Virus record (IMG/VR): IMGVR_UViG_3300044730_000975
Coordinates: 1 to 25,586 of that record
Source: a virus
Length of the DNA stretch: 25,586 nt
Reading direction: 5' to 3' (one strand)
The notes under the pieces were generated by a model. It saw only the letters and a program-made list of their open reading frames with translations. It did not search any database and was not told where the DNA came from. Positions 2,243-19,941 of the stretch are shown in pieces. Position 1 is the first letter of the stretch. Each line of letters starts with the position of its first letter. Made by a program: the position numbers and the translations under genes.

Positions 2243-2283
2243 TTGATGTTCAGATTGTGTCCTGTCCCCGATGTTATTGTTTT
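2243..2283 (-). repeat. 41-bp leader repeat, copy A
   Basis: This is a perfect 41-bp direct repeat of 2678-2718, lying immediately upstream of the ATG at 2238. On the minus strand it contains a GGGGACAGGACAC core with a tandem GGACA. Because it lies between two genes read in the same direction, it acts as a 5' leader for the downstream gene. Confidence 0.85.
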
Positions 2284-2285
2284 GA

Positions 2286-2672
2286 TTATGCGGGAGTTAG
2301 TTCTGAACAAAGGTTGTCGAATAACCTCATCGCAGAAGTTTCGTTTCCAACGAATGCACAATCGATGTCAGTCGATATTTCATCTCCTTTATCACCAATT
2401 GCTATCAGGTAAAAATTTCCTTCTTCTTTGAATGAGTTCGTGATTTTGAGTAGAAGATAACAAGTATACAAGACCACAGTCCCGAATTCGTTTGGGTCTC
2501 GTCCTTTCATTGTCTGTTCAAAGAGATAATTACTGACATCCTCTCTTTCAATTCCTGAAGGTAGAGAGAGATAATGGTTTTCCATCGACTGTAGAAAATC
2601 TGATACATCAGTCAAAATTTTTGTACCTTTTGAACGATGATAAAATGCGAGGTAAAGTGGTTTGGTACTCAT
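2286..2672 (-). CDS. Unknown cytoplasmic protein (128 aa) between two 41-bp repeats
   Basis: ATG start at 2672, beginning MSTKPLYLAFYHRSKG. No signal peptide or obvious motif. The second half contains a hydrophobic stretch (TVVLYTCYLLLKI) and FYLIAIGDKGDE, suggesting a small alpha/beta globular protein. I do not recognise a family. The gene together with one repeat copy forms a unit bracketed by perfect 41-bp direct repeats. Confidence 0.7.
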   Translation of the reverse strand: MSTKPLYLAFYHRSKGTKILTDVSDFLQSMENHYLSLPSGIEREDVSNYLFEQTMKGRDPNEFGTVVLYTCYLLLKITNSFKEEGNFYLIAIGDKGDEISTDIDCAFVGNETSAMRLFDNLCSELTPA

Positions 2673-2677
2673 AATAA

Positions 2678-2718
2678 TTGATGTTCAGATTGTGTCCTGT
2701 CCCCGATGTTATTGTTTT
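2678..2718 (-). repeat. 41-bp leader repeat, copy B
   Basis: Identical to 2243-2283. It lies between a -7-like TACCTTCG (2721-2728) and the ATG at 2672, so it would be most of the 5' untranslated leader of the 128-aa gene. Confidence 0.85.
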
Positions 2719-4846: not shown

Positions 4847-5740
4847 TTAGGGTGTTGGTAATACAAGGAAATAACCTGCTGAATACGATGCACCTGGTAT
4901 TGTAATTAGTTTGGTATTCTTATTGACAGTTATCGTTGTATTCTCTGTATAAGGTAATACAGTTGTACCGGTCAAGTATCTTGTAACACCCGTATAAGTT
5001 TCAGTAGTCGCCCCACTTACAGTTCTTGTAAATCCTGACATAATTTGTCTATTGTAAACACCACTGATACCATCATCAGCCAAATAATATGCTCCAACAG
5101 GAGATGCTGAGAACTCAAGTGTAGATAAAGTTGCTCCAAGAGTTATCGATAATGTACCACCAGTGAAATCAACCTGCTTATTACTCACCACACTTCTCTT
5201 CGTAAGTTGAGAACCATTCACAAATAAGTTACCTGTAATTCCTGAAATTGTAGTTGAATCATCTGCTGCATAATAGAATGCTGTATTCTGACCAATTTTA
5301 TATGCTGGAGTCGCAGAAGGTGTAACAGATGGGGTATTAGTTGGAGTGTTGGTAGGAGTCACAGTCATTGTTGGAGTTACAGAAGGTGTCGGTGATGGAG
5401 ATGGTAAATCAGCTTCATCAACATTTATTCCGATTGTATCACCAGATTGTAATATTGGACCCTTTAACTCAATCATTCCTGAAGAATAATCATTAGCGGA
5501 AATAAGATTTCCATTTACATAAAATTCAATCTGAGCATTACCTTGTTGAAGGAATAGAAGAATTGAACCCTCTGGCGAACCTTTTCCGTTATTTATTTCT
5601 GTATTTGTTCCTGATACTGTTTGTCCACTGAATAATGGAAAACTACCAGATGTGACAGTAAAAGTTCCATAAGAAGAACTTAAACTTTCTATCAATGTAA
5701 TCACCGCATTTGCGGAGTTATTTGTTATTGAAAAACTCAT
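4847..5740 (-). CDS. Fibre-like virion protein with Pro/Thr linker (297 aa)
   Basis: ATG at 5740, last gene of the late operon. Residues 1-110 form a beta-rich N-terminal domain (MSFSITNNSANAVITLIES). Residues 113-145 are a Pro/Thr/Ser linker of TPT and TPS units. Residues 146-297 form a Gly/Thr/Ser-rich beta domain ending YFLVLPTP. This N-domain/linker/C-domain plan matches the other fibre-like proteins in the window, so it is probably a virion surface or receptor-contact protein. No enzyme motif is visible. The function is inferred from architecture and position. Confidence 0.7.
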   Translation of the reverse strand: MSFSITNNSANAVITLIESLSSSYGTFTVTSGSFPLFSGQTVSGTNTEINNGKGSPEGSILLFLQQGNAQIEFYVNGNLISANDYSSGMIELKGPILQSGDTIGINVDEADLPSPSPTPSVTPTMTVTPTNTPTNTPSVTPSATPAYKIGQNTAFYYAADDSTTISGITGNLFVNGSQLTKRSVVSNKQVDFTGGTLSITLGATLSTLEFSASPVGAYYLADDGISGVYNRQIMSGFTRTVSGATTETYTGVTRYLTGTTVLPYTENTTITVNKNTKLITIPGASYSAGYFLVLPTP

Positions 5741-8821: not shown

Positions 8822-10321
8822 CTAATATACATTTCTACCCAAAGATGTATTGAATGTATTTATTATTGAACTCAAGGTTGAAACCTGTGAACCACTCAAT
8901 CCATCTGCGAAGAATATAAATGCTAAAGTTTGTGGTGAAAATTCTTGGGTAGCACCACCTGACCCTTGTCTCGCAAATACATATATTGCATTTGGGGTTG
9001 TAGTCGCAGTATAACTATTACTTGTTGAATTTATCAAACTACCATTCCTATACAAATTATGAGTTGTAGTACTACCAGTTGTTCTTGAGATGACAAACAT
9101 TCCAGTATTTCCAGAATATGTTTGTGAGGTTATACTCGTACTACCCAATCTATAAGCATAATTTCCACCTAAAGTTGTTAAATAGGTTGAAAGTTGTATT
9201 GCAGGTAATCCACCAGTACTGAAATTACCAAATACAAATTCAGCTCCACCTGATAGTGAGGTTATCTGATAAACACCAGCACTCACACTGTTTTGAGTAA
9301 ATGCCGTTTGTATTAGATTTGTATTTCCCCAACCATTAGTTCCATTACCGGTTGCTCCTGAAACTCCAAATGACATTCCTCCAAACCAAGTAATATTATA
9401 TGTACCAGGACTAACTGCGTTGATTGCACAAGAACCCGAAGTTGAACCTATGAATGGATACATTGCCTTCATTGAAGTATAAAGACCATTAGATTTTAAT
9501 GAGGTAAAGAGTGTATTGGTTGCCGCAGATATCGTTGCATTGAGAGTTCCCCCTGTCGCAACAACAGCATTCAAAAAGGTTGTAGCATCAGAATCAAAAG
9601 GAGTAGGACTTGGAGTGATACTCGGAGTATTTGTATTTGTTGGCGTCATTGTGGTTGTCGGTGTAACAGAAGGAGTGTTAGTTGGAGTTTCTGTTGGAGT
9701 TACAGAAGGCGTATTTGTCGGAGTTTCCGATGGTGTTATGCTCGGAGTATTGGTTTGTGTTACAGAAGGCGTATTTGTCGGAGTTTCCGATGGTGTTATG
9801 CTCGGAGTATTGGTTTGTGTTACACTTGGGGTGACAGAAGGAGTTTGAGTTGTAGTAGGAGTGTTTGTAGTAGTTACAGAAGGAGTTGGACTTGGAACAA
9901 GCGGTTGAATCTCATCAGGAGCGAAGATATAATTTGAATTGAATTCATTATTTGAAATAAATGAATCGAATTGAGAATTCACTGTGATTGCTGATTGAAC
10001 GATAACTTGAGCATCACCATTCTCAACAACATTGGTCGCAAATGCAGGATTCAAGTTCCCGCTGCCGGCGGGTTGCTCCCAAATGGAATATAGATATTGT
10101 CCCTCATAGGGAAATCTAATTTGTCCTACACCATTTCCCTCAACAAAATAAAATTCATCATATCTACTTTTATGCGTTGAAATATCTGTAGGAATGAATG
10201 TTACATTTTCCTTTGAGAATATATGTGTAAAAGAAAATAGATACTCAGGATTGGTAAGTTCGGAATTCTGAGAAACAGTAACAACCAAAGTATTTGGTTG
10301 GTTTGTTTTGATTATTAGCAT
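8822..10321 (-). CDS. Lectin-like tail-fibre or head-fibre protein with Pro/Thr linker (499 aa)
   Basis: ATG at 10321. Residues 1-137 are a compact N-domain (LTNPEYLFSFTH, FYFVEGNG, YLYSIWEQ), of the kind that recurs at virion proteins of Bacteroidota phages and is likely the attachment module. Residues 142-241 are a Pro/Thr/Ser linker. Residues 243-499 (DSDATTFLNAVVATGG, LKSNGLYTSMKAMYPFIGST, YVFARQ-like, FADGLSGSQVSTLSSIINTF) resemble the concanavalin-like lectin domain on phage fibres. It probably binds host surface glycans. It is transcribed between the tail-tube and portal genes. Confidence 0.78.
   Translation of the reverse strand: MLIIKTNQPNTLVVTVSQNSELTNPEYLFSFTHIFSKENVTFIPTDISTHKSRYDEFYFVEGNGVGQIRFPYEGQYLYSIWEQPAGSGNLNPAFATNVVENGDAQVIVQSAITVNSQFDSFISNNEFNSNYIFAPDEIQPLVPSPTPSVTTTNTPTTTQTPSVTPSVTQTNTPSITPSETPTNTPSVTQTNTPSITPSETPTNTPSVTPTETPTNTPSVTPTTTMTPTNTNTPSITPSPTPFDSDATTFLNAVVATGGTLNATISAATNTLFTSLKSNGLYTSMKAMYPFIGSTSGSCAINAVSPGTYNITWFGGMSFGVSGATGNGTNGWGNTNLIQTAFTQNSVSAGVYQITSLSGGAEFVFGNFSTGGLPAIQLSTYLTTLGGNYAYRLGSTSITSQTYSGNTGMFVISRTTGSTTTHNLYRNGSLINSTSNSYTATTTPNAIYVFARQGSGGATQEFSPQTLAFIFFADGLSGSQVSTLSSIINTFNTSLGRNVY
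9699..9824. repeat. 60-bp tandem repeat in the fibre linker
   Basis: A perfect 60-bp period covers 126 bases (9699-9764 equals 9759-9824). It encodes 20 residues of the linker, such as VTQTNTPSITPSETPTNTPS, so copy-number change alters linker length without shifting frame. Confidence 0.9.
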
Positions 10322-17340: not shown

Positions 17341-19941
17341 TTAAAAACAAGCTCCATCATCCGCAGTTATGGTCCAAGAACATCCACAATTCAGGTCAAC
17401 ATTTGTGAACAAGAAACTTCCACCACTTCCTGTTGTTTCTTGACATTGAATTATCTCATCACAATCCTGTAAAGTAATATTCTGTCCTGATATTGAACTT
17501 GTGAAGAACACCTCAACATCTACTGTTGCTCCCGTTTGTAATGTATAGAAATTACCTTGAGGGTCACCAGGTGCTATTGGGAAGTTTGTTCCTGATAAAT
17601 GAGTTACTGAAACTCCACTTACCTCGACATCAGTTATTGTTATATCCAATGAATTCAAACTACTCACACTCAAATAACAACAGAAATCAGGGGTTGGACT
17701 TGGGGTTTGAGTAGGTGTTGCAGTATTTGTAATAGTTGGCGAAGGAGTATTAGTTTGAGTTACATTAGGAGTTTGACTACTTGTAATAGAAGGTGTAACA
17801 CTCGGTGTCTGAGTTTGGGTTTGTGTATTGGTTTGTGTATTGGTTGGCGTAATGGATGGAGTGTTCGTTTGTGTGACACTTGGAGTTGGCGTCGGGGTGA
17901 TTGTACATTGTCCACCAGCAGTTATTGTGCCAAGTCCTCCTGATTGTGTTACAGTTCCATTTATCGCACATATTGTTGTTGATGCTCCAAATGATAGGGT
18001 AGTTGTTCCACTACTTCCATCACAATTAGTCCAATTAAATGTTGTTTGACCAAATCCATTATTTTGTATTGTATATTCTCTACAGAAATTTGGAGTTAAA
18101 CTCGGAGTTGCTGTATTGGTAGGAGTGGGCGTTTGAGTTACAGGTGCAGTATTAGAAGGACTCGGAGTAATTGTTGGGGTGTTGGTCAAAGTAGGAGTAG
18201 GCGTAGGCGTTGTTACATTATAAACTATATCAACACAAGGACAAGCAGCACTTATAGAATTTACTGTGAATGCTGTAATGTTATTTCCTGTATTATATGA
18301 ATGGTCGTGGTCATTGAAAACCATTATTGTTGAATATGGTTGATTGATTGCTCCACCATTTATATCATAAGTTCCTGAGAAACTATAATCACAAATCGCA
18401 TTAGCATTACCTGTGAAGTCAGGATTGTCATACAATCTGAATCTTATGTCACTACTTCCTTGTATCTCAGCTAATAAATATTGTGTTGTGAAAGTTCCAC
18501 AAGTTGGGGAAGGAGTTACTGTGGGTGTTAAAGTATTTGTTGGAGTGATTGATGGAGTGGGGGTATTACTTGAAGTAGGAGTTGGCGTAGGACAAACCAA
18601 TGGATATGTTATATATCCCCTATCATTTTGTCCTGCTCTTGGATAAATAACTCCACTGAAGGTTGTATTCAGTAATGTTCCCAAAGCAGTTGAACCACCC
18701 ACCCAAGTAACACCAGAACTTAGAATAGATTGTGATTGTTCCACTGAAATCCAACCAGAAGTTGTTGCAGTTAGTGAAGTCCATCTTTGTACAACAGTAT
18801 TATAATCACTACCATCATAATATTCAAATACAGCATAATTATTCCCATCAGGTGCAACTCCTGGTACGAATATTTTAACTCCACCCCCATCAATAGCATA
18901 ACCGTAGTTCATACTCTGACCTGATGCGGAATATTGTCTAATATAAGTTCCGTTATCAAATAAACCACTTGTAGAATTTGTTACAACAAACTCTTCAGGA
19001 CATATAGCATTTGGAGTTCTCGTAGGAGTTATACTTGGAGTGACAGTCGGCGTTTTAGTATTTGTCGGAGTTATTGTTTGAGTTGGGGTATTAGTTGGAG
19101 TTCTTGTAGGACTTGCGGTAGGAGTGCTTGTAGGACAAACCAAAGGATAGTATAAGTAAGCACTTCCTTTAAAACCTGTTGTTGGGAAACGAACTCCATC
19201 GAAAATTAAACTACCGATACCTAAATTGGTTATTCCTCCGACCCAAGTAGAACCCGAACTTAAAACAGATGGTAATTGTTCAGTTGAAATCCAAGATGAT
19301 ATTGTTGTAGAACCTGTGAGGAATCTCGCCATTACTGTATTATAATCTCCCCCATCAAAATATTCGAAGATTGCATAATTATTTCCGTCAGGTGCAGTTC
19401 CAAGAATAACTTGTTTTGTTGTCGCTGTCAGTGATATTGAACTCCATAGAGCATAACCATAGTTCATACTCTGTCCTGATGCTGAATATTGTCTAATATA
19501 AGTTCCACTATCAAAGGTAGAACCACCACTCAATACAATAAATTCTTCAGGACAAACAGGATTAGGAGTTTGTGTAGGAGTTCTCGTTGGCGTTCTCGTC
19601 AAAGTTGGAGTATTGGTTGCTGTGGTTGTAGGAGTTGCTGTATTAGAAGGAGTTTGTGTAGGAGTTAAACCAACTGTTACTGATGGGGTAGGAGTTACAG
19701 TTGGGGTTAAAGTATTTGTTGGGGTGACAGTAATAGTATTTGTCGGAGTTGAAGTAACACTCGGAGAACATACAGCAGAGAAAATAAGTGGTCCACAACA
19801 AGTATGAGGATTGGTTGTTTCAATACAAATACATTGTCCTAACACAAGATAGAATGCTCCAACAACTCCATCACAAGTTGTACCTGAGACATAAGCACTT
19901 CCACCATAAGTATTATCGTGACAAAAACTATAACAACTCAT
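17341..19941 (-). CDS. Modular Pro/Thr-linked virion surface protein with a duplicated domain (866 aa)
   Basis: ATG at 19941. Residues 1-60 are Cys-rich (MSCYSFCHDN). Five Pro/Thr/Ser linkers lie at about 61-128, 271-311, 451-480, 577-618 and 680-752. Between them are folded modules: two near-duplicate domains (130-270 and 314-451, both CPEEF...GTYIRQYSASGQSMNYGYA...APDGNNYA, ending YPLVCPT), an unrelated 481-576 module (GTFTTQYLLAEIQG), a Cys-containing 619-679 module, and a 753-866 C-terminal module with several Cys pairs. The DNA of the linkers is repetitive. Architecture and location between tail-tip and tape-measure genes suggest a fibre or adhesion protein exposed at the tail tip. No enzyme motif is visible. 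Confidence 0.75.
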   Translation of the reverse strand: MSCYSFCHDNTYGGSAYVSGTTCDGVVGAFYLVLGQCICIETTNPHTCCGPLIFSAVCSPSVTSTPTNTITVTPTNTLTPTVTPTPSVTVGLTPTQTPSNTATPTTTATNTPTLTRTPTRTPTQTPNPVCPEEFIVLSGGSTFDSGTYIRQYSASGQSMNYGYALWSSISLTATTKQVILGTAPDGNNYAIFEYFDGGDYNTVMARFLTGSTTISSWISTEQLPSVLSSGSTWVGGITNLGIGSLIFDGVRFPTTGFKGSAYLYYPLVCPTSTPTASPTRTPTNTPTQTITPTNTKTPTVTPSITPTRTPNAICPEEFVVTNSTSGLFDNGTYIRQYSASGQSMNYGYAIDGGGVKIFVPGVAPDGNNYAVFEYYDGSDYNTVVQRWTSLTATTSGWISVEQSQSILSSGVTWVGGSTALGTLLNTTFSGVIYPRAGQNDRGYITYPLVCPTPTPTSSNTPTPSITPTNTLTPTVTPSPTCGTFTTQYLLAEIQGSSDIRFRLYDNPDFTGNANAICDYSFSGTYDINGGAINQPYSTIMVFNDHDHSYNTGNNITAFTVNSISAACPCVDIVYNVTTPTPTPTLTNTPTITPSPSNTAPVTQTPTPTNTATPSLTPNFCREYTIQNNGFGQTTFNWTNCDGSSGTTTLSFGASTTICAINGTVTQSGGLGTITAGGQCTITPTPTPSVTQTNTPSITPTNTQTNTQTQTQTPSVTPSITSSQTPNVTQTNTPSPTITNTATPTQTPSPTPDFCCYLSVSSLNSLDITITDVEVSGVSVTHLSGTNFPIAPGDPQGNFYTLQTGATVDVEVFFTSSISGQNITLQDCDEIIQCQETTGSGGSFLFTNVDLNCGCSWTITADDGACF
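18589..19002 (-). repeat. Duplicated domain, copy 2 (coding repeat)
   Basis: Encodes residues 314-451 of the 866-aa protein. It is clearly related to the copy at 19132-19554, with identical blocks such as GTYIRQYSASGQSMNYGYA and APDGNNYA. Between them the sequence differs, so the duplication is not recent or is under diversification. Confidence 0.85.
19132..19554 (-). repeat. Duplicated domain, copy 1 (coding repeat)
   Basis: Encodes residues 130-270 of the 866-aa protein. Both copies are flanked on each side by Pro/Thr linker DNA, which would provide the homology for unequal crossing-over. Confidence 0.85.

Follow-up and report, generated by a model that had tools for sequence, protein, structure and literature searches.

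A predicted minimal leader pseudoknot preceding unrelated genes in phages that mostly seem to infect Bacteroidetes

INTRODUCTION

The preQ1-I and other small H-type riboswitches have a second helix (S2) of 3 bp and an A-rich linker, and an invariant core with a weak helix is typical of ligand-stabilized pseudoknots. Mobile regulatory cassettes of T4-type phages, the PeSL cassettes that Arbiol, Comeau and Krisch reportedly described in 2010, are said to consist of a promoter plus a stem-loop. For phage T4 gene 32, a leader with a pseudoknot of ~28 nt and an unstructured part of >40 nt before the start is described, bound by the gene's own product (PMC535899). The E. coli rpsO (uS15) and alpha operon (uS4) leaders have a pseudoknot beside the start codon that affects 30S binding, according to the text of PMC10931766, which also ascribes a high affinity for pseudoknots to the ribosomal protein bS1. 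The STAXI motif (Weinberg 2010) is presented as occurring in two or three tandem copies near genes of DNA-binding proteins (PMC2864571).

Here, we analyzed a repeated gene leader in a stretch of viral DNA of 25,586 nt (IMG/VR record IMGVR_UViG_3300044730_000975, positions 1 to 25,586), hereinafter referred to as the window. As in T4 gene 32, a small H-type pseudoknot is predicted in a phage mRNA leader upstream of the start codon; in contrast to the T4 case, with one gene regulated by its own product, the element precedes many unrelated genes and is located 8–10 nt from AUG. A location before the gene of the binder itself, as in an operator of the gp32 type, was not seen, the downstream proteins forming at least 65 unrelated clusters. 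The rpsO and alpha operon leaders are alike in having the pseudoknot beside the start codon, but they are autogenous, whereas the genes found here belong to phages of a host class that does not use Shine-Dalgarno (SD) pairing. Size and topology resemble those of small H-type pseudoknot riboswitches such as preQ1-I, but the consensus differs, there is no Rfam match, and no metabolic gene set is present. Like PeSL, the element is a regulatory leader at junctions of phage gene shuffling, but it consists of an RNA pseudoknot that goes with the start codon and may or may not have a promoter. It shares with STAXI a pseudoknot near genes of the mobile-element type, whereas STAXI comes in tandem copies and the leader element had no Rfam match. 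By analogy, the leader may act in a way broadly comparable to the pseudoknots of T4 gene 32 or rpsO; we do not claim its membership in either group.

RESULTS

The repeat listing of the window contained two 41-nt direct repeats, 100% identical, on the minus strand at 2243–2283 and 2678–2718 (spacing 435). Their 3' ends are located 4–5 nt ahead of the start codons of two genes, in agreement with the earlier note, which had reported perfect 41-bp repeats before the genes of a 128-aa and a 187-aa protein. The upstream copy (2678–2718) is the leader of the 128-aa gene (minus strand, 2286–2672; ATG 2672–2670, TAA 2288–2286), which has no family match. The intercistronic copy (2243–2283) starts 3 nt past this TAA and is the leader of the 187-aa gene (minus strand, 1675–2238), which matches a single family, PHROG 1848 (of unknown function, E 1.8e-10), and whose product had been labelled as exported on an N-terminus judged by eye. 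The identity of the two copies extends past a 26-nt core by 11 nt on the upstream side and 4 nt on the downstream side. The core is separated by 9 nt (2673–2681) from the first ATG and by 8 nt (2239–2246) from the second. The sequence TACCTTCG (minus strand, 2728–2721), which we take to be a -7 box of the Bacteroidetes type (TAnnTTTG-like), is present in front of the upstream copy only; the intercistronic copy lacks it and follows a coding region, as had been noticed before. A search with the 25-nt core (up to 3 mismatches) detected only these two sites in the window and none in 100 dinucleotide shuffles, and the record contained no core copies beyond the two. Model R1 matched positions 2670–2709 (E 3.8e-11, this copy being included in the model) and 2236–2274 (E 1.1e-7).

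The repeat is predicted to hold a minimal H-type pseudoknot with two directly adjacent helices, because the bases of the first helix (S1) covary and because CAG and CUG of S2 switch jointly to CGG and CCG. The pairing in the window copies was deduced from covariation in relatives. Read on the minus strand, the core of copy 1 (2682–2706) would comprise S1 UC (2706–2705), loop L1 GGGGA (2704–2700), S2 CAG (2699–2697), and S1' GA (2696–2695), followed at 2682–2694 by L3 CACAAU (2694–2689), S2' CUG (2688–2686), and AACA (2685–2682). In copy 2 (2247–2271), S1, L1, S2, and S1' would be located at 2271–2270, 2269–2265, 2264–2262, and 2261–2260, and L3, S2', and AACA (together 2247–2259) at 2259–2254, 2253–2251, and 2250–2247. 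The earlier description of the core as G-rich was correct; GGGG forms the loop of the pseudoknot, a fold that had been missed.

S1 is formed by the two bases ahead of GGGGACAG and the two bases behind it, the sequence of which varies with complementarity kept. In the 115 distinct leaders among the matches listed, the mean S1 length was 2.40 vs 0.84 in shuffled sequences, with a maximum of 1.14 in 2,000 shuffles. When one leader per protein cluster was taken, pair 1 was found in 62/65 and pair 2 in 65/65 leaders among the matches listed (shuffled means, 0.51 and 0.58), both this set and the 115 leaders retaining two chance-looking loci, L106 and L136. C-G, G-C, U-A, A-U, and G-U pairs were used. 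A longer S1 was rejected: pairs 3 and 4 were at the shuffle level in the one-per-cluster leaders among the matches listed, and S1 therefore consists of two base pairs.

In an alignment of 26 sequences, the covariation score of the two-helix structure was 0.421, compared to 0.102 for shuffled and at most 0.066 for slid versions; S1 and S2 were paired in 97.1% of the cells, and the covariation came mostly from S1. One gene family of small phages, the only one from which S2 changes are known, contained CAG:CUG in two leaders and CGG:CCG in seven, with no mixed form and the loop GGGAA in all; several of these leaders are close relatives. A scan with free S2 gave 115 matches vs 7 in the reversed control among the matches listed. 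Only 10 of the 115 were not CAG:CUG, and beyond four CGG:CCG these were at the noise level, so that the comparison of CAG and CGG within the single family is the better test. Overall, it is highly probable that the leader is a structured RNA element. The predicted secondary structure of the window leader is weak (z +1.30). Since S1 is only 2 bp long, the fold probably depends on a partner, the nature of which can only be guessed. Two other readings, a G-quadruplex and an upstream ORF, were dropped on inspection of the sequence.

The element keeps a nearly constant distance from the start codon. Among leaders collected with no constraint on spacing (48 cores, 3 of them truncated by a contig end, with 31 distinct downstream strings), ATG is located 8–10 nt past the core in all 31 distinct leaders (shuffled expectation, 1.6). 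Among the matches listed, a -7 box was present within 40 nt in 47 of the 115 distinct leaders (2.3 expected) and missing in 68, and its distance to the element, where present, ranged from 8 to 29 nt. Since the ATG distance is constant, while the box distance is variable or the box is absent, the element belongs with the start codon rather than with the promoter. Judging from these sequence patterns, it most likely acts in cis on translation. The option of a conserved translation-control leader, raised in the earlier note, is thus strongly supported by the covariation, the 8–10 nt to the start codon, and the variable promoter distance. The spacer is A-rich, with A at -6 in 45/65 and at -3 in 39/65 leaders (one per cluster, among the matches listed). 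A Shine-Dalgarno element was rejected, as GGGGA and AGGA are more than 20 nt from AUG and not 5–10 nt. In a crude comparison with 16S rRNA, which included the flanks and in which the 16S 3' end was located in one of three loci, only short wobble-containing complementarities were found.

At 1516–1559 and 2895–2938 of the window, other genes are preceded by a -7 box of this type and a short leader (TACCTTTGTAAAAACTAAACACAATG-like) without the pseudoknot; the pseudoknot element therefore looks like an insertion that separates the gene from a common promoter. An inverted repeat (CCCCC..GGGGG) with runs of A and T, by eye similar to a bidirectional terminator, is located past the 187-aa gene at 1582–1617. 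The two leader genes are adjoined by a gene (791–1522) for a 243-aa lipoprotein-like protein in which Pfam recognizes a Laminin_G_3 domain (E 4.7e-18).

Concerning occurrence in relatives, on which the earlier note had made its reading depend, the element was found to recur in many other IMG/VR contigs, with exact or near-exact cores in dozens of them. The exact 25-mer was present in 9 other IMG/VR stretches, its left half in 23, its right half in 11, and relaxed core forms in 31, 28, and 39; these sets overlap, and a few of the matches are due to chance. The consensus common to these contexts is TCGGGGACAGGA-NNNN-ATCTGAACA, followed by 8–10 nt and ATG, with unrelated genes behind. The generalized pattern GGGGACAG-N(3-14)-CTGAACA-N9-ATG was found in at least 119 viral stretches; in this set GGGGACAG, CTGAACA, and the 9-nt spacer are fixed by construction, so their invariance is built in, and the surrounding bases are free. 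A protein-based search yielded 14 loci, 12 of which were already known via the leader, and all 14 had the leader at 9 nt. Both new loci (L078 and L084) have one loop base changed, and L078 has 5 rather than 8 nt between CAG and CTG; 5-nt forms also occurred in loci collected earlier, with no matches in reversed controls. Five short-pattern hits (L024, L026, L027, L041, and L042) were set aside as chance by their context and are absent from the 45-leader set. Three loci of the generalized-pattern set (L106, L136, and L155) look like chance, with a GC content of 0.50–0.60 and a poor S1.

The copy number is mostly 1–3 per record. Records of 69, 162, and 335 kb had one copy each, and of 22 larger records searched whole, 18 contained one copy, 2 two copies, 1 three copies, and 1 none. 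Locus L180 had four model matches, several loci had two, and the record of L179 had none. Some contigs end exactly inside the leader (L014, 1–29, and L022, 10867–10892, of one 33.5-kb contig; L025, 1–27). Such ends are expected of an assembler at a repeat, and the true number of copies per genome may therefore exceed the count.

Bacteroidota chromosomes almost entirely lack the element. When up to 2 mismatches were allowed, matches were found in 4 of 395 Bacteroidota genomes (reversed control, 1); only genome G025 had exact ones (2 copies), and the other three had 2 mismatches. Model R1 matched 2 of 198 Bacteroidota genomes, G025 and, weakly, G093; the latter match was rejected, being by eye antisense within a coding region. 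In a single scan of genome contigs, the only hit was the MAG of a rumen Bacteroidetes, which has two copies at a distance of 442 nt. Near these copies (L050, 1655–1680 and 2097–2122; C7 of G025) there are, by eye, DNA-methyltransferase-, RepA-, and UmuC-like genes, probably of a mobile element. No convincing R1 match (best E 0.31) was found in four named isolates, covered over 33,633 of 38,268 bases of lillamy9-1, 35,700 of P12024S, 9,100 of 9,174 of FLiP, and 50,000 of 102,679 of crAss001. A similarity search with the leader region gave no DNA match in the GenBank phage collection; isolates may still carry the element. When proteins of leader-bearing contigs were compared with GenBank phages, four queries had no match and two had distant ones.

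The 113 downstream proteins among the matches listed fell into at least 65 clusters of unrelated proteins. They include ParB-like proteins (via phage relatives), a DNA polymerase (phrog_1252), and a TM2 protein; the others are mostly unknown small proteins. Among the matches listed, no functional coherence was seen in the controlled genes, most of which have no known function, and the gene set gives no clue as to an activating or a repressing effect of the element on translation.

The viruses with the element seem to infect mostly Bacteroidetes bacteria. In the window, the portal, head protease, and tape-measure genes match PHROG or Pfam, and the only GenBank phage relatives of the portal come from P12024S and P12024L, two phages of Nonlabens (28.6% over roughly half). 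In view of this kinship, the window probably represents a tailed phage of a Flavobacteria-like host. Several of its presumed structural proteins (4847–5740, 8822–10321, and 17341–19941) have long Pro-Thr repeat tracts of the PTPTPTNTPS type. Six of 11 inspected loci (L117, L142, L143, L165, L169, and L172) have exact terminal repeats of 70–127 nt, and these small phages therefore seem to be circular and complete at 12–13 kb. A lysozyme-like gene was recognized in them by eye, hardly any PHROG matches were obtained among the tested proteins, and they are possibly non-tailed. Two of them, L117 and L172, have two pseudoknot leaders each; six of their proteins were tested, and two had weak PHROG matches. 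In a search for a protein common to the carriers, one of all ORFs of L117 and L172 matched 2 of 50 other loci, which are fragments, and none matched more; a shared protein may lie outside these fragments, but the result favors a host partner.

The edges of the element coincide with junctions of gene swapping. Between the window and L005, which share the 128-aa gene and its leader, 147/150 positions are identical downstream and 53/150 upstream; for L006 and L008, the values are 148/150 and 48/150. With high downstream and low upstream identity and the break at the leader, the leader and the gene are seen to move as a unit. They would be exchanged jointly between phages, with the identical leader providing the homology. 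A recombination site, the other option of the earlier note, thus finds support as a side effect, in that the same leader and gene occur behind unrelated upstream DNA with the break at the leader.

DISCUSSION

The leader element is probably a kind of cis-acting translational pseudoknot that matches no catalogued RNA family tested. Rfam 15 gave no matches above the gathering threshold in the window and 9 other loci, and relaxed searches gave sub-threshold ones only. No description of the motif was found in the literature covered, which excluded most subscription papers and the supplements of PMC8040213 (a microbiome RNA survey).

The architecture would be a 2-bp S1 of free sequence, the loop GGGGA, an adjacent 3-bp S2 (CAG with CUG), a linker of variable length, and AACA, followed by 8–10 nt, mostly 9, to AUG. 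The best explanation, to which we give an even chance, is that the leader pseudoknot docks on the host 30S subunit and presents the start region, and that leader and gene are exchanged as a cassette. That the element works by docking on the host ribosome is proposed tentatively, at somewhat less than an even chance. The initiation of translation would be affected in cis. For a spacer of 9 nt, S2 would end at -14, and AACA would occupy -13 to -10, with AA at -13/-12. These two positions may correspond to the stimulatory upstream adenines of Flavobacterium johnsoniae; in this species, Baez et al. describe stimulation of initiation by A-3, A-6, A-12, and A-13, and they name bS1 as a candidate for reading the upstream adenines (PMC6847099). 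The coincidence at -13/-12 may be chance, because AACA could belong to the fold. The knot would dock on the platform of the 30S subunit or on bS1 and offer it the A-rich start region. Docking would replace Shine-Dalgarno pairing, unused by Bacteroidetes ribosomes; in Bacteroidia ribosomes the anti-SD is described as sequestered (PMC9976891). The sparseness of the element, mostly 1–3 copies per record, is odd for a general ribosome-docking device.

A broader proposal, which we consider possible but doubtful, is that of a viral RNA class among the smallest natural pseudoknots (2 + 3 bp), docking mRNA on non-SD ribosomes and moving as a leader-plus-gene cassette. It would be the prokaryotic counterpart of an internal ribosome entry element, used in tailed phages, on large-phage contigs of up to 335 kb, and in unrelated circular phages of 12–13 kb.

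Alternatively, the leader could be a ligand-gated riboswitch, which we regard as unlikely. The pseudoknot would be a tiny aptamer that closes on a metabolite, perhaps one responsive to infection, and masks or exposes the start region. This would fit the invariant core around a weak helix, the weakness of the predicted secondary structure of the window leader taken alone, the few copies per genome, and the fact that no phage protein common to all carriers was seen. However, no metabolic group is visible in the at least 65 clusters, with their DNA polymerase, ParB-like, TM2, and unknown proteins, and the near absence from Bacteroidota chromosomes contrasts with most riboswitches.

Rather improbable is a translational operator for a host- or phage-encoded RNA-binding protein, like T4 gp32 on its own mRNA pseudoknot. 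The invariant loop and tail resemble a binding site, and T4 gene 32, as described in PMC535899, is a phage precedent, but the T4 operator belongs to one gene only and answers to the product of that gene, whereas here at least 65 unrelated clusters are involved. Moreover, no protein is common to the two apparently complete 12–13 kb genomes and the 50 other loci, although these are fragments and a shared gene may lie elsewhere, and a repressor site would not require 8–10 nt to AUG.

We consider it very improbable that the repeat is a recombination or gene-shuffling site kept for DNA exchange without an RNA role. Such a site would explain why homology breaks at the leader, why the 41-bp identity runs beyond the core, and why contigs end within the leader (L014/L022 and L025), but homologous exchange wants identity and not two covarying base pairs, and its spacing to ATG would be unconstrained. 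A DNA operator or promoter part for a transcription factor, to which the enrichment of -7 boxes within 40 nt could point, is hardly credible, since the box lies at 8 to 29 nt or is missing and the ATG distance is fixed, and the intercistronic window copy has no -7 box.

The leader pseudoknot, with its support from covariation, its constant spacing to AUG, and its presence in unrelated phages, offers a concrete and easily testable part for understanding how translation is directed in phages of Bacteroidetes, whose ribosomes do without SD pairing. The knot poses a choice between a ribosome-docking device, a metabolite sensor, and a protein operator. Structural studies would gain a natural pseudoknot of very small size, and the element is a possible portable expression part for Bacteroidetes. 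In these phages, a regulatory RNA would also serve as a joint in gene exchange.
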